From positions 1 through 24,498 of the IMG/VR virus record IMGVR_UViG_3300009419_000092: a stretch of 24,498 nt of DNA. The stretch is one strand, 5' to 3'. A model generated the notes under the pieces. That model was given only the letters and a program-made list of their open reading frames with translations. It was not told the DNA's origin and ran no database searches. The DNA is from a virus. The translations under genes and the position numbers were made by a program. Of the stretch, positions 1-20,705 are shown in pieces (the first letter of the stretch is position 1; each line of letters begins with the position of its first letter).

Positions 1-794
1 CCGTTTTTAAGAATTCGACCATCTATTAAGTTTTCAGATGCATGATATGGTTTAAAAGTATATTCTCTAAACTTTATATCTTCTTTTGGAACTTTAATAA
101 TACTGGCCATGTCCGCTAGTGCATCTTCCTTAGAAGTAATAGTATCATTATAAAGATATCCCCACCCCTGACGATGTTGTAAAGGAATGCCAAACATCCA
201 GCCATTCCGATGTGCCCAATGATGTGTATAGTTCCAGTCACCTTCTTTATGTACTGCTGCAACTAATGCATGATTAATAGGAAGGTCTACCATAGTGTAG
301 CCTGTGTAGTCTTTAGGAAACCCTCCACAATCAACTACATAATCATACACATGAATACTATTGTTGATCTTAACTTCAACACCGTTGTCTATGTTCTTCA
401 TGTACTCAACTGTACCTTCAAACGATTTAAATTTATTTGGGTAACGTTCTTTTAATCGTTCGAACCCAACTTCTTTCAATTTTGTATTATCAAAATGTAT
501 AGCATAGTTTGGCGGTAAGATTAAGCTATCAAAAGTGTGCTCTCTCCAGTTGGTATACCGAACACCGTACTTGAATGTTGCACTTAATCTCTCTGCGTCA
601 TAGGCCATGTTAAATCCTAGGCCTTTAAAGAATGCTAACGGTGCATTAGTGCTAGTTGCTTCTCCTACCCCTAAAATTGGGATATTAGGATCATACACAG
701 AATGTATTTCCCAATTGTCATCTAGGGAGGAAGCCATCTGACCTAGAGTTATAATACCAGCCGTGCCGACGCCGACTACTAAAATTTTCTTCAT
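1..794 (-). CDS. Flavin-dependent (tryptophan-type) halogenase, truncated by window edge
   Basis: The reading frame starts at ATG 794 and stays open to base 1, so about 264 N-terminal residues are visible and the C-terminus lies outside. An N-terminal FAD dinucleotide-fold motif GVGTAG is at residues 8-13. GVGEAT at 42-47 follows, then SATFKYGVRYTNW, whose K75 aligns with the catalytic lysine of PrnA-type halogenases. GWMFGIPLQHRQGWGYLY at 198-215 corresponds to the family WxWxIP signature, with the second Trp replaced by Phe (W199-M-F-G-I-P). The family uses FADH2, O2 and halide to make hypohalous acid, which the lysine delivers to the substrate. A phage member, VirX1 of cyanophage Syn10, is a known iodinase. 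The gene starts directly after the dCMP deaminase stop codon, so it is probably the last member of that cotranscribed unit. The substrate is unknown. An FAD-dependent monooxygenase of the same fold is the main alternative, but the lysine context and IP motif favour a halogenase. Confidence 0.85.
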   Translation of the reverse strand, partial: MKKILVVGVGTAGIITLGQMASSLDDNWEIHSVYDPNIPILGVGEATSTNAPLAFFKGLGFNMAYDAERLSATFKYGVRYTNWREHTFDSLILPPNYAIHFDNTKLKEVGFERLKERYPNKFKSFEGTVEYMKNIDNGVEVKINNSIHVYDYVVDCGGFPKDYTGYTMVDLPINHALVAAVHKEGDWNYTHHWAHRNGWMFGIPLQHRQGWGYLYNDTITSKEDALADMASIIKVPKEDIKFREYTFKPYHASENLIDGRILKN

Positions 795-1301
795 TTATAT
801 TTTCTTTACGTCGACGCCGGATTTTTCTAGGAACTCGACTCCGGCCATGTCCCTATAACTATTGCGATAGTATACGCTAGATATGCCGCCTTGGTATATA
901 AGTTTGGCACAATCCAAACAAGGAGCATGAGTGATAAAAATACTAGCATCACTGCCGCTTTGGCTTGACTTGGCCAACTTCGCAACTGCATTGGATTCAG
1001 CATGTAGTACCTCTGGTTTAGTTTTTAGTCCGTAACGTACATTGCGTTGAGCACCCTCGTGCCATCCTTCATAAGGATACTGTTCTTCAAACTCTTCTGG
1101 ACTTAGCCAACCGCCTGCACCCTTGTCCCATACACGGTTTTCGCAGTCATTGTCCCAACCTGCGGGCATACCATTGTAGCCGTAGCTGATAACTGAGTCA
1201 TCTTTTACAATGACTGCACCTACTTGCAATCTCTTAGCGTGACTAAGTTGAGCAGTACGATCTGCCCAGTCCATGTACATATCGATAAATTTTTGTTTCA
1301 T
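795..1301 (-). CDS. cd: dCMP deaminase
   Basis: This 168-residue zinc deaminase converts dCMP to dUMP, the substrate of thymidylate synthase. The zinc-site signatures are HAE at residues 100-102 (zinc His and proton-shuttling Glu) and PCLDC at 127-131 (two zinc Cys). GYNGMPAGWDNDCE near residue 41 matches the N-terminal substrate loop of T4-type dCMP deaminases. The roughly 40-residue insertion between this loop and the HAE motif is typical of the family. The start codon overlaps the stop of the upstream lysin gene (TAATG), which implies translational coupling. With thyX and nrdAB upstream on the same strand, it completes a route to dTTP. The closely related ComE-type deaminases are the only realistic alternative. 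Confidence 0.93.
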   Translation of the reverse strand: MKQKFIDMYMDWADRTAQLSHAKRLQVGAVIVKDDSVISYGYNGMPAGWDNDCENRVWDKGAGGWLSPEEFEEQYPYEGWHEGAQRNVRYGLKTKPEVLHAESNAVAKLAKSSQSGSDASIFITHAPCLDCAKLIYQGGISSVYYRNSYRDMAGVEFLEKSGVDVKKI

Positions 1302-2431: not shown

Positions 2432-2824
2432 TTATATTTCTCCTGATTGTGCTAATTTTAACATTAGACTATATTGTTCGTACGCTTTACGAACTGCTGG
2501 ATATGTATCACGCAGTGCTCGCTCACGTTCTTTCTGTTCCATAAGGGTTTCAAACATATTATAATGACCCTTACTTTTCATATTGTTGAACACCTGGCTT
2601 TCAAACTCAGCAATGCGTTCTAATTCACTTTCACTGATCTCAACTGTGTAAAGAGTTTCAGTTTCAAAAGTTATATGCTCTTGATAAAACTTATTATAGT
2701 CAGTCTCATAATGAAATAGGTTTACATTGGCACGAGTATGTTTGTAGGCACGTTTATTCGAGTCGATGACTCGAATGTTGTGTTCAGCTGCAAACTTTTT
2801 CAGTGTGTCACTGGGACTGGACAT
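2432..2824 (-). CDS. Conserved hypothetical phage protein
   Basis: This is a 130-residue, charged, mostly helical protein without signal peptide or membrane segment. The C-terminal half (about 65-130) is rich in Glu, Lys and Arg and looks like one or two long amphipathic helices. I recognise no catalytic motif. Its start lies inside the end of thyX (17-base overlap in another frame), and its stop is followed at once by the next gene. It is therefore cotranslated in the thyX-to-lysin unit. Reality is supported by the unbroken frame, the tight junctions on both sides and the good Shine-Dalgarno it carries for the next gene. Function unknown. Confidence 0.65.
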   Translation of the reverse strand: MSSPSDTLKKFAAEHNIRVIDSNKRAYKHTRANVNLFHYETDYNKFYQEHITFETETLYTVEISESELERIAEFESQVFNNMKSKGHYNMFETLMEQKERERALRDTYPAVRKAYEQYSLMLKLAQSGEI

Positions 2825-3479
2825 ATTCTGTCACCATTGGGAATATCTCGGAGATAACTTTAGCACACTCGCGAGCAACTTCCATATGTTCTAACTGAGT
2901 TCCGTTTCCGCTACGCAGTTCAATAAAGTGTACCCAACTACGCAGGGTACCATTCATATACAAACGGCTAACTGTGTTACCTTCTGGGAGGATTGCACGA
3001 GCCTGCTCTTTGGCAATGCCGTTCTCAATAGCCCAAGCATAATTTTCCTTGACTAAATCAATCACTGCCTGTTGTCTACGATTCCATTCAATAATCAATT
3101 CACGATTATCAGTCAGCACACTGTTTTGACGATTCTTTGTATCTTGCAGGCGAGCATCGCGAAGAACAAAGTCTAAGTCCTTTGTAGGATCGGCGTAACG
3201 TTGACTAAACTCTTGAAAGCTGAAACTACGATGACGTAGGATTTGACGAGCAATATCGCGAGTAGTTTCAATCTCAAGACAAGCCGATACCATTTCAAGT
3301 GGGCTCCAATGTTTGTGCTTGACTAGATACCGGATCAGCTTGTCAGCTGTGTCCATATTGTATTGATTAGCAGGATTGCTAACACGAGCACAAAAGGCAA
3401 TGAGCTCCTGAACATCTGTCAATCCTTCGTCATACATCCCACGACTTGGTCTGCTAGATGATACTAATTTAACTTTCAT
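2808..3479 (-). CDS. thyX: Flavin-dependent thymidylate synthase ThyX
   Basis: ThyX methylates dUMP to dTMP using methylenetetrahydrofolate and FADH2 from NADPH. The 223-residue length fits the family. The diagnostic ThyX motif RHRxxSxxxxSxRY is intact as RHRSFSFQEFSQRY at residues 82-95. WSPLEMVSACLEIE at 58-71 matches the conserved stretch before it. Near the C-terminus FIELRSGNGTQLEH corresponds to the substrate-binding arginine region. The start overlaps the upstream stop by four bases (ATGA), indicating coupling. It takes the dUMP produced by the dCMP deaminase encoded downstream, so the two form one path. Many aquatic T4-like phages use ThyX rather than ThyA. Confidence 0.96.
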   Translation of the reverse strand: MKVKLVSSSRPSRGMYDEGLTDVQELIAFCARVSNPANQYNMDTADKLIRYLVKHKHWSPLEMVSACLEIETTRDIARQILRHRSFSFQEFSQRYADPTKDLDFVLRDARLQDTKNRQNSVLTDNRELIIEWNRRQQAVIDLVKENYAWAIENGIAKEQARAILPEGNTVSRLYMNGTLRSWVHFIELRSGNGTQLEHMEVARECAKVISEIFPMVTEYVQSQ

Positions 3480-4213: not shown

Positions 4214-5314
4214 TTAAAGATCAGGTAGTTCTTCGTACTCAACTGTGTCTGACATTACGCCGATGACATAGTTAGTTGATTCATTTTCCTGTAGTGCAGT
4301 CTGCTTCTTATTGATGTTCACATGTTTGTTAAACCAAGGAATAGGACTGAACTTAGGATGATCCTCTAAGTACTTGATACCAATTTCTTTTAGACGGGTA
4401 AATGCTGTGTAGTCCACAAAGTCTTTTAAGATGTTAGCGTTCAATCCGATAACCACACCTTTCTTGAATAAGAACTCAGCCCATTCTTTTTCTTCACGAA
4501 TAACTTCTAAGTACAATGCATACACTTCGGCCGCACATTCTTGTTCTAGTTTGACAAAGTCGGGATCATCTTTGGTCACATTGTTGATCAACCAAGCAGT
4601 CCACTCTGTGTGCAATAGCTCGTCTTGTAGGATCAAGCTGATGATGTTGCCGTTGCCGATGTAGATTTTGTTTTCTACCATTGCCAGGCTAGTGGCAAAA
4701 CTCACCATGAAGCGTAGAGCCTCCAGTGCATAGCTTGCGTGTAGTGCCATCCATATGGCTCGTTTATGCACCATAGTGTCAATTGTCTCTCCCAACTCTT
4801 TACGGCAGTTAAGCTGATGAAGATCCTCATAGTAACGACCAATGTTAGCAGCCATGCCAACAATTTCAGCTGTGTCGTGAATTTTGTTAAACTCGTCTTT
4901 AGGTACTCCATATACGTTCCTAATAATATGACTGTAGCTCTTTGAGTGAATATTTGTTTCAAAGAAACTCCAGTTGCTGACTAATGCTTCTAGTTCTGGC
5001 AAACTAATTACAGGTTGGAACACTTGATTAGGAGCACGACCTTGAATACTGTCCAATGCTGTCTGCCTTAGTAGGTTACTGGTAAAGATATGCTTGACTG
5101 CATCACTAGCTTCCTTGTGATCCATCTTGTCTTTAGTAAGACTGATTTCTTCTGGTACCCAAAAGAAGCCACGTGCTAATTCTTCGTACTTGGCAATCTT
5201 AGGATATTTGACTTCTTCGAAACGCTGTACAGTAACTGGACCAGCAGGATCCAAAAACATTGTACGCTTTAAGTAGTTTGTTTGTTTTGATAAGTTATAT
5301 TGTTCTTTGCTCAT
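4214..5314 (-). CDS. nrdB: Ribonucleotide reductase class Ia, beta subunit NrdB
   Basis: NrdB carries the diiron-tyrosyl radical used by NrdA to reduce ribonucleoside diphosphates. I start it at ATG 5314 (366 residues, MSKEQ...), because this ATG follows the upstream stop codon and has a Shine-Dalgarno AGGAAA at a good distance. A longer in-frame start at 5335 would overlap the aldolase gene. Conserved ligands by alignment to E. coli NrdB are D88 (in LDSIQGR), E119 and H123, E198 (in LEALRF), and E232 and H235 (in QDELLH). The radical Tyr is Y127 (in SKSYSHIIRN). The E119-H123 pair is spaced ETNIH rather than the usual ETIH, a one-residue insertion. The C-terminal tail ends in acidic/Leu residues, as needed for NrdA docking. 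A terminator follows. Confidence 0.95.
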   Translation of the reverse strand: MSKEQYNLSKQTNYLKRTMFLDPAGPVTVQRFEEVKYPKIAKYEELARGFFWVPEEISLTKDKMDHKEASDAVKHIFTSNLLRQTALDSIQGRAPNQVFQPVISLPELEALVSNWSFFETNIHSKSYSHIIRNVYGVPKDEFNKIHDTAEIVGMAANIGRYYEDLHQLNCRKELGETIDTMVHKRAIWMALHASYALEALRFMVSFATSLAMVENKIYIGNGNIISLILQDELLHTEWTAWLINNVTKDDPDFVKLEQECAAEVYALYLEVIREEKEWAEFLFKKGVVIGLNANILKDFVDYTAFTRLKEIGIKYLEDHPKFSPIPWFNKHVNINKKQTALQENESTNYVIGVMSDTVEYEELPDL

Positions 5315-5315
5315 T

Positions 5316-5972
5316 TTAATAATTTCCTGATGCAAGTACGATCTTGCAAATATGTTCTAGTCTCTCAATGTGTTCGTATGCACGCCACGGGCTTGTGTCA
5401 ATAGCTACTACTCCATGTCCTTTAATACCTACAATGTCATAGGCAATGTTTCCATCACGATCTAATTGTAACTGTTTGTGGCACTGGTCAGCAAGCTCTT
5501 GACTGATAGGAGGTACGTCTCCTACATTAGGTGCTACTTTGGTGTAGCGATTAAGTTCTGGAAATGCTGCACTGACTGTACTCAAATCAATTCCGGCATG
5601 CATGGCAGCAATACAATACGTAGGATGCACATGAACTACTACACGAACATCATCCTTGTGTTGTCCCATTTCTTTCTGTAGTCCGAAGTGTAATGAAATC
5701 TCTCCACTAGGTACTAGATTCTTACTTATGTCCGAGTACGGTAAGTCTCTCCAACTATAGTTAAAAGCAGCACTACCATAACCACTATGAATACTTTTAT
5801 CAATACTGATCTTTTTAAACTGATCAGGTTGCAGTGTTTGCTTTCGTACACCACTTGGTGTAATATAAAAATGGTCACGGTCATGATGACGTATTGAGAC
5901 ATTACCATCACGACTAGTAATCCAGTTACGCTTGTAAGCGTCAACCATTATGTCACATATTGTTTCTAACAT
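5316..5972 (-). CDS. Class II aldolase/adducin-family protein
   Basis: This 218-residue protein fits the metal-dependent class II aldolase fold (fuculose-, rhamnulose- or ribulose-phosphate aldolases and epimerases). Visible motifs are GNVS at 23-26 and TPSG at 38-41 (phosphate-binding loops), PSGEISLH at 88-95 with E91 as candidate catalytic acid, HVHPTY at 114-119 giving metal ligands H114 and H116, and KGHGVVA at 184-190 giving the third ligand H186. All expected metal ligands are present, so an active enzyme is likely, but the substrate cannot be read from sequence. It sits between iscU and nrdB with a one-base overlap on the iscU side. This places a sugar-phosphate or methionine-salvage-like activity in the nucleotide operon. 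The ribulose-phosphate epimerase branch or MtnB are alternatives. Confidence 0.85.
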   Translation of the reverse strand: MLETICDIMVDAYKRNWITSRDGNVSIRHHDRDHFYITPSGVRKQTLQPDQFKKISIDKSIHSGYGSAAFNYSWRDLPYSDISKNLVPSGEISLHFGLQKEMGQHKDDVRVVVHVHPTYCIAAMHAGIDLSTVSAAFPELNRYTKVAPNVGDVPPISQELADQCHKQLQLDRDGNIAYDIVGIKGHGVVAIDTSPWRAYEHIERLEHICKIVLASGNY

Positions 5973-6346
5973 TAATGTTTCTTTCTATAATCTTCTACTG
6001 CGGCTTTGATAGCATCCTCTGCTAGAATACTACAATGTATCTTAACTGGAGGTAGGGCTAGTTCTTCGGCGATTTGGGAATTTTTAAGGTTAACAGCATC
6101 ATCAATATGCATACCCTTAACCCACTCTGTAACCAACGACGAACTGGCGATTGCTGAACCGCATCCATATGTCTTAAAACGAGCATCTCTAATAATACCA
6201 TCTGAGTCTACCTTTATCTGTAACTTCATCACATCGCCGCAGGCCGGTGCTCCGACCATGCCGGTGCCAACTGTGTCGTCAATTTCAAACTTACCCACAT
6301 TTCGAGGATTCTCGTAATGATCGATTACTTTGTCCGAGTATGCCAT
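5972..6346 (-). CDS. iscU: IscU-like Fe-S cluster scaffold
   Basis: This is a 124-residue protein of the IscU/NifU-N family, on which cysteine desulfurase builds [2Fe-2S] clusters. All three cluster cysteines are present: C36 in GAPACGD, C62 in TYGCGSAIASSS and C105 in VKIHCSILAED. So is D38, which in IscU governs cluster release. The HscA-recognition pentapeptide LPPVK is intact at 98-102, so the phage protein should be able to dock with the host HscA/HscB chaperones. No IscS, HscA, HscB or ferredoxin gene is in the window, so it would depend on host partners. It lies after the ErpA-like gene (9-base gap, AAGGAT Shine-Dalgarno) and overlaps the aldolase by one base. Confidence 0.94.
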   Translation of the reverse strand: MAYSDKVIDHYENPRNVGKFEIDDTVGTGMVGAPACGDVMKLQIKVDSDGIIRDARFKTYGCGSAIASSSLVTEWVKGMHIDDAVNLKNSQIAEELALPPVKIHCSILAEDAIKAAVEDYRKKH

Positions 6347-6355
6347 ATTGTATCC

Positions 6356-6685
6356 TTATACTGAAAAACTACTGCCACAACCACATGTAGATTGTGCATT
6401 GGGATTTTGAATACTAAATTGACTACCGTGTAAATCTTCTTTGTAATCAATTACAGCACCACTAAGATACTGCATACTCATTGCATCGATTAATATCTTT
6501 ACACCTTGTTTCTCTACAACAAAATCGTCTTCGTGTTGTTCTTCATCAAATGTAAATCCATACTGGAATCCAGAACAGCCTCCGCCTTGAACAAATGTCC
6601 TAAGTTTCAACTTAGGATTATTCTCCTCTGCTAATAGGTCTGTAATTTTAACAACAGCTGATTCTGATATAGTTACTTGATCCAT
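6356..6685 (-). CDS. ErpA/IscA-type Fe-S carrier
   Basis: A-type carriers take clusters from IscU and deliver them to apo-proteins. The preferred start is ATG 6685 (MDQVTIS..., 109 residues), overlapping the nrdA stop codon (TAATG). The longer in-frame start at 6706 lies inside nrdA and adds residues absent from the family. All three conserved cysteines are present: C37 in [15 protein letters not shown] and C101/C103 in the C-terminal CGCGSSF. The segment [11 protein letters not shown] resembles ErpA more than IscA or SufA. With iscU next in line, it forms a scaffold-carrier pair inserted between nrdA and nrdB. The family assignment is secure. The ErpA subgroup is inference. Confidence 0.92.
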
Positions 6686-9030
6686 TATAGCTTGCATGCC
6701 TCGCAATCGGCGTCATCATAAATGATAACATTGTCTGCTGCATTAATTGCAAATCCGTTTATACCATTAACCTGTGTAGTTGCAGTGACGTTAGTCTTGG
6801 CACCTACCTTATTAATTAGACTATAATAAATGGTCTTAATGCCCCACTTGTATGCAAGCATCAAGTTCTTAGCAATCAATGTAGCAGGAACTTTACCGTT
6901 AGCAAAGTGTGCTGGATTATAGAATGTGTTAGTGCTCAATGATTGATCAATGTAAGCTGCTAATACTGCGGCTGTCTTCAGGTAATCAACACAGTCGGTC
7001 TGTTCCCACATCATCTGATAACGATTCTTTAAACGTCTGTACTCTGGCACGACCTGTACAAACGATCCAGCTTTCGATTCCTTTACAGAAATCAATTCCA
7101 TCGGCATTTCAATTCCGTTGGTGGAGTTTAACACAACTGAGCTGGACTCAACCGGTGCCACGGCCATCAAGGTAGCATTACGAATACCATATTTTTTCAT
7201 ACGTTCACGTAACGGCTCCCAATCCATACTGGGAGTAAAGTCTGTTAGTTCGTTAACTCCCGGATTTCTACGTTCCCAAGGAAACACTCCCTTACCGTAA
7301 TAAGTGTGCTGACTACGTCCGCATGGCCCACGCTCTTGGGCAAGCTCGACACTTGTTTCAGTAAGATAGTATGCTTGATGTTCCATCCAACGTTTGACTT
7401 CTGCTAGTGCTTCAGCTTCACCATATTTGAAACTACGCTTGGCATGCCAGTAGGCTAAGTTAGTAATACCAACACCTAATGGTTCAAAGTCTGTGTTGGC
7501 TAACTTGCTTTGAATACTTAGGAAGTCTTGATAGTTTAGTAAGTTGCTTAGACTACGTACCAATACCCTGCAGGCCTTACGCATATCTTGCGGGTTACGG
7601 AATGCACCCCAGTTTATTGATCCAAGAGTGCAAAGAGCAATTCTGCCCTCCGGGTCTTCAATGCGTTGAAAAGGTCGGGTGGGCAAGAGAATTTCTTGGC
7701 AGAGATTTGATTGATATATCGGGTCAAGAGTTGTATCGAACGGGCCTTGGTTGATGACGTTGTCAATGTTGACAAAGTAGATTCTTCCAGTATCCGTACG
7801 CTCTTTAAGTATGCCGTTTTTAAACACTTCTGCGGCGGGTAGGACTTTTTTCTTTTTTGTCTTATCTTGTTCATACTGTAAGTATAACTTCTCAAACTCT
7901 GTAGAGTCGCGATAAAATGCTCGATGTAGGTCAGGAACTTCGTTAGGATCAAAGAATGTAATGTTTTCGTTGTGCTTGTAGCGATTCCAAAACATCTTGT
8001 TAACTACAACTGAGTAATCCATTTGACGCACACGATTTTCTTCAGTACCTTGATTATTCTTTAGTACAATAAGATCTTCAAACTGAGCGTGCCAAATAGG
8101 ATATGTCACTGTGCAACTGGCATTGCGGATACCGCCTTGTGAGCATGAACGTAAATCTGCGAACCATTTCTTCAAGAAAGGAATCATTCCAGTATGCTTG
8201 ATCTCACCGTTGCGAATAGGAGCACCTAACGGTCTGATTCTGCCAATTTCGAGACCAATACCGGCTCGTTTTGAAGCATATTTGGCCATCATTTCGCCTG
8301 ATGCGAAGATACTGTCCAGTGTATCGTCAGTGCTGATAAGAACACAACTACTAAACTGTTTAGTGGTTGTGCCTAGACCGGCGAGAACAGGTGTGGCTAG
8401 CGTAAAGTGGCCGTCCCTGGCACATTCGTAGTATTCTTTTACCCACTTTAGTCTAACATCTTTAGGTTCGGAATGGAATGCTGTGGCGGCGGCAACTGCA
8501 TAACGTACTTGTGGCGTTTCGTATATTGTGTTAGTGGCACGATTCTGTACTAGATACTTTTCAGCTAACTGTGCAATGGCAGCAAATGTGTACTGTTCGT
8601 CTTTTGCATGGTCAATGAATAGATCAATAATGTTCCATTCGTCTTCTGTGTACCAATCTAGCAGTTCGCTAGTGTACATGCCTAACTCAACATTCTTCTT
8701 AACGATGTTGAATAATTTAGGTGGCTCGTAATCACCGTATACTTCTTTACGCAACATACTTAGACGCTGGCGTCCTGCTACGTATTGATAGTTGGTATGA
8801 TTTATTTCCGGATTCTCAGATTCATCAATTAGATCAACCATTGCCTTTAACAGCAATTCGTCAATTGTATTGGTGGTCATGCCATCGTGGAATTCTAATT
8901 GTGCTTTGATCTCGATCATAGACGGACTTACACCATCTATTCCGTGGCAGCTAAATGCTACTTGTCTTTGTATTTTTGAAATATCTAGTGGAACTCGCTG
9001 TCCACTACGTTTAACTACTTGAATAGTCAT
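6685..9030 (-). CDS. nrdA: Ribonucleotide reductase class Ia, alpha subunit NrdA
   Basis: This 781-residue catalytic subunit reduces ribonucleoside diphosphates to deoxy forms. The N-terminal ATP-cone is visible at about residues 3-90 ([12 protein letters not shown]...). Active-site cysteines are C229 (FSSCVLI), C444 with E446 (SNLCQEI; thiyl radical Cys and catalytic Glu) and C467 (LCTLGSINW). The C-terminal shuttle pair is C776/C779 in DCEACKL, the site expected to be reduced by glutaredoxin. Length and all motifs are complete, with no intein or intron. A Shine-Dalgarno AGGTGG stands four bases before ATG 9030. It is the first gene of a minus-strand unit running through erpA, iscU, aldolase and nrdB. 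Retention of the ATP-cone suggests normal dATP feedback may be kept. Confidence 0.97.
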
Positions 9031-12389: not shown

Positions 12390-13084
12390 TTGTAGTAATT
12401 AACGTAGTAGTCTTCAACTTTAGCTAGCCACATGTCTTGGTATTTGTTAAAGTTATCTGGTGTTAGATCGAATTGTTGATATTGTAGATCGCGACTGCAC
12501 ATGAATACATGCCCTTCACGAATGTCTGTCCCATAGACTTCGTTATGTGCTAAAATATAAGCCATTAGCTGCAAGAAGTAATCTTCAACCCATTCTGCTT
12601 TCTTAGGTTTGTTAGTCTGTTTATAGTCACATACACTAGGATTACCTTTGTACACTGCTACTAGGTCAGTAGTACCCGAATATAGTCCCGGGAAGTACAG
12701 ACTCTGCTCCATTGCCCAAACTTCGTTAACATCTTTTAATCCCTGCTCAATGATAACATTGGCCATCTTATTGGCCTGTACATGCACCAGATTGTTGCCC
12801 GGCTGACGCTCTAGTCCAGCAAGGAATCTTTCTAAGTTATTATGCATAGCTGTACCGATCCCAGAAGCTTCTTTAGTTATCTGTGCAGCATTTTCTTCAC
12901 CAACTCTCTTACGCCATTCAATTAAATGCGTTTGATCTTTAGTAGCACTAAGGATCGTTGTAACACTTGGTGTTTTTTCTCCGTCAGGTGTTAGGTAAAC
13001 TCTCTTACGGGTTACAGGGTCATTTATTTGTTGGCAAGGTTTATATTGTACGTGTTCTACAAAAGGTGGTGGAGTATAAATCAT
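12386..13084 (-). CDS. PD-(D/E)XK (RecB/Cas4-like) nuclease
   Basis: I choose ATG 13084 (232 residues, MIYTPPPFVE...). The upstream in-frame extension to 13201 crosses the divergent promoter region and reads as non-coding. The nuclease core is E126 in WAMEQSLY, D140 in GTTDLV, D153-Y-K155 in VCDYKQTNK and Q172 in DYFLQLMAYILAHN, the order of RecB-type exonuclease domains. The N-terminal part (TPSVTTILSATKD, then GIGTAMHNNLERFL) is also usual in phage members. It has only three cysteines, so the Cas4/AddB Fe-S cluster is absent. Likely roles are processing of phage DNA ends during recombination or breakdown of host DNA. It has a good sigma70-like promoter, so expression early in infection is likely. 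Confidence 0.85.
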   Translation of the reverse strand: MIYTPPPFVEHVQYKPCQQINDPVTRKRVYLTPDGEKTPSVTTILSATKDQTHLIEWRKRVGEENAAQITKEASGIGTAMHNNLERFLAGLERQPGNNLVHVQANKMANVIIEQGLKDVNEVWAMEQSLYFPGLYSGTTDLVAVYKGNPSVCDYKQTNKPKKAEWVEDYFLQLMAYILAHNEVYGTDIREGHVFMCSRDLQYQQFDLTPDNFNKYQDMWLAKVEDYYVNYYK

Positions 13085-13091
13085 AGTATTA

Positions 13092-13120
13092 ATTATACAA
13101 CAGTTTTTATCATAACGCAA
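13092..13120 (-). promoter_or_regulatory. sigma70-like promoter for the nuclease gene
   Basis: On the minus strand TTGCGT (13120-13115) is followed by a 17-base spacer and a perfect TATAAT (13097-13092), close upstream of ATG 13084. With the -10 this near, the leader would be about zero to five bases. Confidence 0.65.
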
Positions 13121-13129
13121 ATAAAGGAC

Positions 13130-13137
13130 TATAAATA
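13130..13137 (+). promoter_or_regulatory. Late promoter box (TATAAATA, perfect)
   Basis: This exact match to the T4 late consensus lies on the plus strand, with its last base eight bases before ATG 13145. The predicted leader is about one or two bases. It sits back to back with the minus-strand sigma70-like promoter. Confidence 0.75.
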
Positions 13138-13144
13138 TTTGCCA

Positions 13145-13693
13145 ATGCAAGACTATTTTCAAAAATTCGAGTTTGAACTCAAACCATTCGACTACGAGCA
13201 ATTAAAAGGACCGCTAGCATTCCAATATGGCTATCCAGATGTTATTATTTTTCTTTACAAAATTAATAACATAGAATTATTTAAAAGTCTACACTCAACT
13301 CCAATATCGAGTATACCGCCTACTCGAGTATTCTATTCTGAAATTGTTGGGAGAGGGTATTTACAACCTCATAAAGATTTAGGAGTAGGCTGCAACTTGA
13401 ATTGGTATTTTCAAACGGACGAGTCTTCTACTGTGTTCTTCGACGAAACAGACAAGACGCAACATCTAAGCAACATTAAAGAACAAGGGGAAAACGTCTT
13501 TCACTTAGACCAGCTTACTGAACGTTGTAGATTTAGTGCAGAAAAAAATACGGCCTACTTATTAAATGTAAGTAGACCGCACAGTGTTCATAAGCCTAAA
13601 TTAAAAATTAGAAAATTCTTTTCTTACCAATGGCTCGATCATGATTATCAAACTGTACTAGACAGCCTGTTGATTAAGAAAGCGGACTGTTAA
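13145..13693 (+). CDS. Putative Fe(II)/2-oxoglutarate-type oxygenase-like protein
   Basis: This 182-residue protein starts at ATG 13145 (MQDYFQKFEF...). The longer frame opening at 13028 runs through the nuclease gene and both promoters, so I reject that start. A metal triad is suggested by H76-x-D78 in GYLQPHKDLGVGCNLNWYF and by H146 in YLLNVSRPHSVHK. R156 in IRKFFSYQW, ten residues later, is a candidate co-substrate ligand. The spacing and strand pattern fit the double-stranded beta-helix oxygenase fold. It shows no obvious sequence similarity to the oxygenase-like protein at 11664-12389 beyond this signature. Its 3' end overlaps the convergent gene by 20 bases. The substrate is unknown, and prediction from motif order is moderate at best. 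Confidence 0.6.
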   Translation: MQDYFQKFEFELKPFDYEQLKGPLAFQYGYPDVIIFLYKINNIELFKSLHSTPISSIPPTRVFYSEIVGRGYLQPHKDLGVGCNLNWYFQTDESSTVFFDETDKTQHLSNIKEQGENVFHLDQLTERCRFSAEKNTAYLLNVSRPHSVHKPKLKIRKFFSYQWLDHDYQTVLDSLLIKKADC

Positions 13694-19950: not shown

Positions 19951-19976
19951 AAAAAGGACTCCTAGGAGTCCTTTTT
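19951..19976. terminator. Bidirectional terminator between convergent genes
   Basis: A 26-base perfect palindrome centred on CCTAGG, with AAAAAGGACT at one end and AGTCCTTTTT at the other. It serves the plus-strand 91-residue gene and the minus-strand desaturase. The desaturase stop codon lies within it, so the stem also encodes the last residues of that protein. Confidence 0.85.
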
Positions 19977-20705
19977 CACGAGCTTAATTACTTGCCAACC
20001 TAAATCAAATTCCCACCACTTCTTGCCGAACTGCGGATCGCTTGCACGAGCATGATGATTGTTATGCCAACCTTCTCCGGCAATTAGATATCCTGTGATA
20101 AGATTATTAGTGCTGCGATCACCTGTGTCAAAATTTTGATATCCTAGAGAATGATTTACTGTATTGGTAAAGCTGCCGGCATGCCATACAAATAATGTAG
20201 GAACAAAGTATGCATAGATAATAGCAAACGGATCAATTAGGCAGATGACGGTGATATAAATTAAATTTACTAGCCAGTAGTAATGATGCATCCACATGTG
20301 GAATTTAGAACGCAACAGATCAGGAACATATCGAATATTAGGAACCTCAAACATGCTTAGGAATTGGACTCTAAAAAATCCTTTAATCCAGGGGCTATGA
20401 GGGTCTTTTTCTTGATCAGTGAATTTGTGGTGCTCTCTATGCACAGCTACCCATCCTAAACTGGATCCGCCGCCGCCAATGGATCCAACTACTGTACCAA
20501 AATACTCAAACCACTTAGGTGCTTTAAACGATCTGTGAGTTAGTAATCTATGGTAAGTTACTGTGCCGCCGATGGTAGCAAAGAAAAGATACAATCCTGC
20601 CGCAATAGCCCATTGTGCTAGTGTACCGTAGTAAAGCAGTATAAAAAATGAAAGGTGTGCTAGTATTTGAAATACTATTAGTGAATTTCTAGTTAATGTG
20701 AACAT
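19962..20705 (-). CDS. Fatty acid desaturase (delta-9 type)
   Basis: This 247-residue integral membrane diiron enzyme introduces a cis double bond into acyl chains. The three histidine boxes are complete: HRLLTH at 52-57, HREHH at 89-93 and HNNHH at 214-218, plus the extra NHS at 184-186 of this family. Hydrophobic segments lie at about 8-27, 30-50, 66-80, 144-160 and 160-180. The order and GxVTYHRLLTHRSF context match DesC/SCD-like acyl-CoA or lipid desaturases. It lies opposite the hydrolase-containing plus-strand island with a shared terminator between. No promoter was identified. Phage versions would alter membrane fluidity during infection. The electron donor would have to come from the host. 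Confidence 0.93.
   Translation of the reverse strand: MFTLTRNSLIVFQILAHLSFFILLYYGTLAQWAIAAGLYLFFATIGGTVTYHRLLTHRSFKAPKWFEYFGTVVGSIGGGGSSLGWVAVHREHHKFTDQEKDPHSPWIKGFFRVQFLSMFEVPNIRYVPDLLRSKFHMWMHHYYWLVNLIYITVICLIDPFAIIYAYFVPTLFVWHAGSFTNTVNHSLGYQNFDTGDRSTNNLITGYLIAGEGWHNNHHARASDPQFGKKWWEFDLGWQVIKLVKKDS

Follow-up and report, generated by a model that had tools for sequence, protein, structure and literature searches.

What is the natural role of viral halogenases? The question is addressed here through a compact flavin-dependent halogenase (FDH)-like gene located at the extremity of a phage contig. The whole stretch of DNA analysed (hereafter the window) comprises 24,498 bp and corresponds to an entire IMG/VR record.

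The truncated gene and its full-length form

The 5' part of the gene (residues 1-264) occupied positions 3..794 of the minus strand, as an open ORF starting with ATG and running off the contig. Since the window is the whole record, the truncation is an assembly effect and no stop codon is responsible for it. The motifs listed in the earlier note were all confirmed in ORF 794..3. These are the FAD-binding GxGxxG motif GVGTAG (residues 8-13, 756..773, minus strand), where G8, G10 and G13 were invariant in alignment A2; GVGEAT (residues 42-47, 654..671, minus strand), where G44 and E45 were likewise invariant; K75 (570..572, minus strand), which aligned to the RebH/PyrH lysine and is the equivalent of the catalytic K79 of PrnA/RebH; and W199-M-F201-G-I-P204 (WMFGIP, 183..200, minus strand), a variant of the WxWxIP signature. 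The fragment matched PHROG 2928 'tryptophan halogenase' (E=1e-53) and scored 91 bits with Pfam PF04820 (Trp_halogenase, cut-off 21), the full protein reaching 101.9 bits.

Relatives of the gene were present on seventeen viral contigs. Three of them (L002, L003 and L004) carried a full-length gene with 97-100% identity across the fragment and two of these, L002 and L003, were 100% identical to it, so that the full gene sought by the earlier note could be obtained from near-identical viral contigs as a protein of 411 aa, encoded at 8001-9233 of L002. Past the truncation point it reads NGNRYMFFEPMEALSMEYY...YHGGSIYDTDFW. E275, found within FFEPMEA in L002 and L003, occupies the place of the PrnA catalytic glutamate (E346), and F331-W332 matches the position of Thal DTPFW. 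FFEPME also agrees with FX[DE]PX[EFL], a published FDH motif (PMC8407142). Other signatures were altered: F replaces the second W of WxWxIP, and the tunnel motif Fx.Px.Sx.G reads F270..P273..A276.S278. Compared with Thal, the protein lacks about 67 substrate-module residues (W83 to H100, from the lysine strand to the HFD strand, span 17 residues against 84 in Thal), is shorter after DCxGF and has no counterpart of the last C-terminal part. The C-terminal halogenase region, on which the earlier note had made its assignment depend, was thus found in part: FxEPxE and F331-W332 are there, while the substrate-module residues and the C-terminal end are not. Given 411 aa and an incomplete substrate module, 'halogenase' designates here an activity that we infer.

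Predicted fold and family membership

An AlphaFold2 model of the 411-aa protein, built from 51 viral sequences, reached a pLDDT of 92.2 and a pTM of 0.89, with structural matches spanning residues 1-404. Its top matches were nearly all variant-A halogenases (SttH, AbeH, BrvH, RebH, PrnA and Thal), with Z scores of about 32-42 over some 375-390 residues. VirX1, a viral iodinase, followed with Z 31.5, and the variant-B enzymes CndH (Z 29.5) and CmlS (Z 27.8) ranked below the variant-A matches. By its predicted fold, the protein would be nearer to halogenases than to other flavin monooxygenases, a common fold being no proof of function. The family identity proposed in the earlier note was upheld by the sequence and by the whole predicted fold, and the model matched variant-A halogenases over about 390 residues. 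A halogenase-like identity is well supported, and halogenase activity is likely. Because it departs from WxWxIP, from Fx.Px.Sx.G and from the full substrate module, we named it a compact variant, probably working like a flavin-dependent halogenase, rather than a classical variant-A member.

A compact, mostly viral branch

In viral contigs, profile searching confirmed 280 relatives; the best 80 of these 280 were kept and yielded 55 distinct proteins of 380-430 aa, each ending in a stop. K75 was invariant (71/71 phage sequences). F201 occurred in 55/55 clade members, a count to which the scan pattern, partly selecting for F, contributed, and in 8/9 short isolate-phage proteins found independently by tblastn, the exception being Campylobacter phage CP21 with W at this position. 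Among long bacterial proteins, GWxWxIP was found in 67/80 and GWxFxIP in 0/80. At least 90% of core-clade members keep E275; in S-SSM7, P-TIM40 and CP21 the residue is Q. In the likewise compact group L099-L108, Ser stands in for the catalytic Glu (EPISATS) and the lysine is kept. Given these S or Q replacements, the general base is not conserved across the wider group.

In a tree of 93 proteins, all the sampled short WxF proteins (45/45) fell on one side of a single branch, which had 100/98 support and was present in all bootstrap trees. Thal, VirX1, bacterial proteins and long phage proteins were on the other side. The suspicion that the W-to-F change marks a subgroup was thus borne out. Length and the W-to-F change are imperfectly coupled, since F also occurs in one of the long phage proteins (L072).

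The bacterial pattern scan detected no compact WxF cellular relatives. The phylum of G019 gave 0/398 matching genomes, a result which, without a positive control, shows little. Short WxF relatives were found in 2/292 genomes of a cyanobacterial phylum, which ruled out a strictly virus-only clade; we therefore call the clade 'mostly viral'. The two cellular genes encode halogenase-like proteins of 443 aa (L194, 1288-2619, minus strand) and 414 aa (L195, 1501-2745, plus strand). Both are short, display GWxFxIP and lie on the compact side of the main branch, but they differ from the phage proteins in being cellular, in having other neighbour genes and in scoring 167-177 bits to the clade model.

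The altered signature also bears on the chemistry. WxWxIP has been proposed as a block to monooxygenation (PMC10696468; PMC5945002), and because the W-to-F change touches this proposed shield, an enzyme that hydroxylates, or that does both, has to be taken seriously as an alternative. Loss of the second Trp and alteration of the halide loop could have turned the enzyme into a flavin monooxygenase whose C4a-hydroperoxide hydroxylates the substrate, or into a HOX-releasing oxidase, true halogenase chemistry being lost. The extension of WxFxIP to the whole clade, the reading of EST/G as EAL/S and the loss of E275 in some members all fit this explanation. Yet K75 is invariant, though a plain monooxygenase needs no such lysine, and E275 is kept in most of the core clade. 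Phe, moreover, is still a bulky aromatic residue and some accepted FDHs have no WxWxIP (PMC8407142). Serious as it is, we judge this loss of halogenation rather unlikely.

Gene neighbourhood in the window

As the earlier note had stated, the gene lies directly after dCMP deaminase (795..1301, minus strand; PHROG 174, E=1.4e-45): the deaminase stop codon (795-797) abuts the halogenase-like ATG (792-794) with a gap of 0 nt. Further upstream on the same strand are a ThyX-type thymidylate synthase (2808..3479; PHROG 85, E=2e-72) and the small (4214..5314; PHROG 86, E=4e-108; Pfam PF00268) and large (6685..9030; PHROG 84, E=5e-264) subunits of ribonucleotide reductase. The order in this lineage is nrdA, Fe-S proteins, aldolase-like, nrdB, glutaredoxin, thyX, ..., dCMP deaminase, FDH. 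The Fe-S genes between nrdA and nrdB encode a NifU-like scaffold (PF01592, 5972-6346, minus strand) and an A-type carrier (PF01521, 6356-6706, minus strand). Elsewhere in the window were observed a fatty acid desaturase domain (PF00487, E=5e-16; 19962-20705, minus strand) and an ORF (13028-13693, plus strand) with a weak match to the 2-oxoglutarate (2OG) oxygenase model c3 (E=5e-6) and no Pfam hit. NrdA displayed 61% identity to that of Xanthomonas phage X1, and one structural protein of the window had no match among phage records.

This position had suggested a base or nucleotide as substrate, halogenated as a product or substrate of dCMP deaminase or of the nucleotide unit. The abutment speaks for it, as do the same adjacency in L038 (FDH 63% identical), the NrdB-FDH order in L040 and L066 and the Nudix genes that, together with tail-type genes, stand beside the FDH in L041-L048. 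However, the suggestion rested on one neighbour kept in just two closely related lineages; elsewhere its place is taken by NrdB, Nudix/tail or 2OG-oxygenase genes. The neighbour varies even inside the window's own subclade (L051 has a 2OG oxygenase there, along with a tail-assembly-like gene), and most clade members are accompanied by oxygenases, other FDHs and fibre-type genes. As only the closest relatives retain the deaminase next door, the case for a nucleotide substrate is weak, and we consider it very unlikely. Co-orientation and abutment with dCMP deaminase are read as an insertion site instead of a substrate clue.

Small-molecule tailoring, in which free tryptophan, indole or a host metabolite would be halogenated as by PrnA, appears equally improbable. 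It is in line with the Pfam and PHROG family names and with the guess in cyanophage papers that the host gains antibiotic protection (PMC2984593; PMC9964418), but the enzyme lacks the block that Trp halogenases have in their substrate module, and biosynthetic pathway genes are absent from the window.

2OG-Fe(II) oxygenase cassettes

Across the clade, the commonest neighbours were 2OG-Fe(II) oxygenases and further halogenases, grouped in cassettes of 10-15 kb. PF13759 oxygenases within 5 kb of a compact gene numbered 35 against 13.4 expected (p=2e-4, whole-contig counts) and, after rough dereplication, 20 against 9.1 expected (p=0.009). Our results support a branch that is compact, mostly viral and repeatedly linked to 2OG oxygenases. 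The window-phage gene itself is not part of such a cassette: in its sister contig a single PF13759 oxygenase was found, about 24 kb away.

Five contigs displayed 3-5 FDHs together with 4-11 2OG oxygenases. The G013 cassette (L082, L202-L203; 58.4-70.3 kb) contained four FDHs and seven oxygenases, and the G009 cassette (L068, L218-L219; 30.7-46.8 kb) five and eleven, respectively, by profile models. Those of G015 (33.8-44.1 kb), G016 (61.0-70.7 kb) and G018 (33.6-45.4 kb) resemble them, the first two with NodU-type carbamoyltransferase and GT9-like genes. Very large fibre-type or glycine-rich genes adjoin all five. The closeness of glycine-rich (PF21722) genes to compact FDHs was not significant (p 0.06-0.39), so that the link to tail fibres comes from the layout. 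Two further features were recorded: a family of about 250 aa without Pfam match, c9 (e.g. L100, 5709-6473), recurs in cassettes and beside VirX1, and a GroEL-type chaperonin gene, recognised by eye, adjoins the oxygenase cassette downstream in L054, L065, L068, L077 and L084.

On the basis of the five cassettes beside fibre-type or glycine-rich genes and of the VirX1 locus layout, compact and VirX1-type halogenases might, with 2OG-Fe(II) oxygenases, form a module by which the phage decorates its own proteins, adding halogens and hydroxyl groups to tail fibres or adhesins. This proposal is speculative and rather unlikely.

Proposed mechanism

Family, predicted fold, K75/E275 conservation, compactness, the single subgroup and the 2OG linkage of the wider clade are findings of this analysis. 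The reading we prefer, with a probability of roughly 0.55, is that of a compact FDH-type enzyme of tailed phages with an open site, a large aromatic target and host-supplied reduced flavin. FADH2 from a host flavin reductase would bind the GxGxxG Rossmann site and, with O2 and halide, presumably yield HOX. This would travel through the protein interior to K75 and its partner E275, where an electron-rich aromatic group would be halogenated. The site is probably open, as the block of about 67 residues of the Thal/RebH/VirX1-type substrate module is missing, and may suit substrates that are large or macromolecular. In many clade phages the enzyme would probably act jointly with phage 2OG-Fe(II) oxygenases. 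Flavin_Reduct (PF01613) was found in 0/8 related phage contigs, which are possibly fragments, and in 13/14 control genomes.

The characterised halogenases are now separated from a branch that is compact, mostly viral and altered in its signature. The gene neighbours of this branch as a whole point away from nucleotides, and it recurs, like VirX1, beside 2OG-Fe(II) oxygenases. Testable predictions on the natural role of viral halogenases follow. With 390-411 aa, the enzyme may prove to be the shortest halogenase scaffold with this fold.

Comparison with known systems

Bacterial variant-A FDHs (PrnA, RebH, PyrH, Thal, SttH and BrvH) share with the phage protein the fold over about 390 residues, GxGxxG and the catalytic Lys and Glu. 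They differ by their size (about 510-540 aa), by WxWxIP and FxxPxxSxG, and by an identity to the phage protein of about 20%.

Tryptophan halogenases of cyanophages are familiar from the literature (PMC3037559, PMC2984593, PMC10452541), and short gene sizes of 1104, 1116 and 1167 bp were already tabulated in 2010, apparently without comment. Proteins of S-SSM5 (ADO97842) and S-MS29 (PHROG 2928; T4-like GC 212) belong to the same tree clade as the window-phage protein, which displayed 40% identity, over 95% of its length, to the compact cyanophage 'tryptophan halogenases'. The latter have 388 aa, keep K and E and read GWMFGIP; in contrast, their hosts are marine Synechococcus and the gene follows gp33 instead of dCMP deaminase. 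A limited search of the open-access literature returned no description of the compact WxF branch or of FDH-2OG cassettes, and no assay of any compact protein was found in the literature searched.

VirX1 corresponds to CPUG_00131 of Cyanophage Syn10 by PDB match (6QGM), CPUG_00132 being the adjoining gene. In Syn10 (L019, 1827-8736) it is annotated as a hypothetical protein (5508-7100), in tandem with a second halogenase. The gene order is two Gly-rich genes (Gly_rich_2), a 164-aa gene without Pfam match, FDH, VirX1, c9, a short gene and a 2OG oxygenase (PF13759). VirX1-like genes of two bacterial MAGs (L114 and L115), possibly mis-binned phage contigs, nest in the phage VirX1 branch. Close kinship between VirX1 and the compact protein was ruled out by the tree (deep split, 100/98, all bootstrap trees). 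The tree with VirX1 that the earlier note had called for resolved the clade, but the grouping with VirX1 did not appear: VirX1 is distant and stands across a deep branch with PrnA/Thal-type enzymes, so that its iodinase activity is not transferable to the compact protein. Both are of phage origin and share the FDH fold and the catalytic lysine. VirX1, however, has 530 aa, intact WxWxIP and PLESTG and additional substrate-module residues, and falls among bacterial FDHs. Its locus resembles the compact cassettes in carrying, besides a c9-family protein, a 2OG oxygenase.
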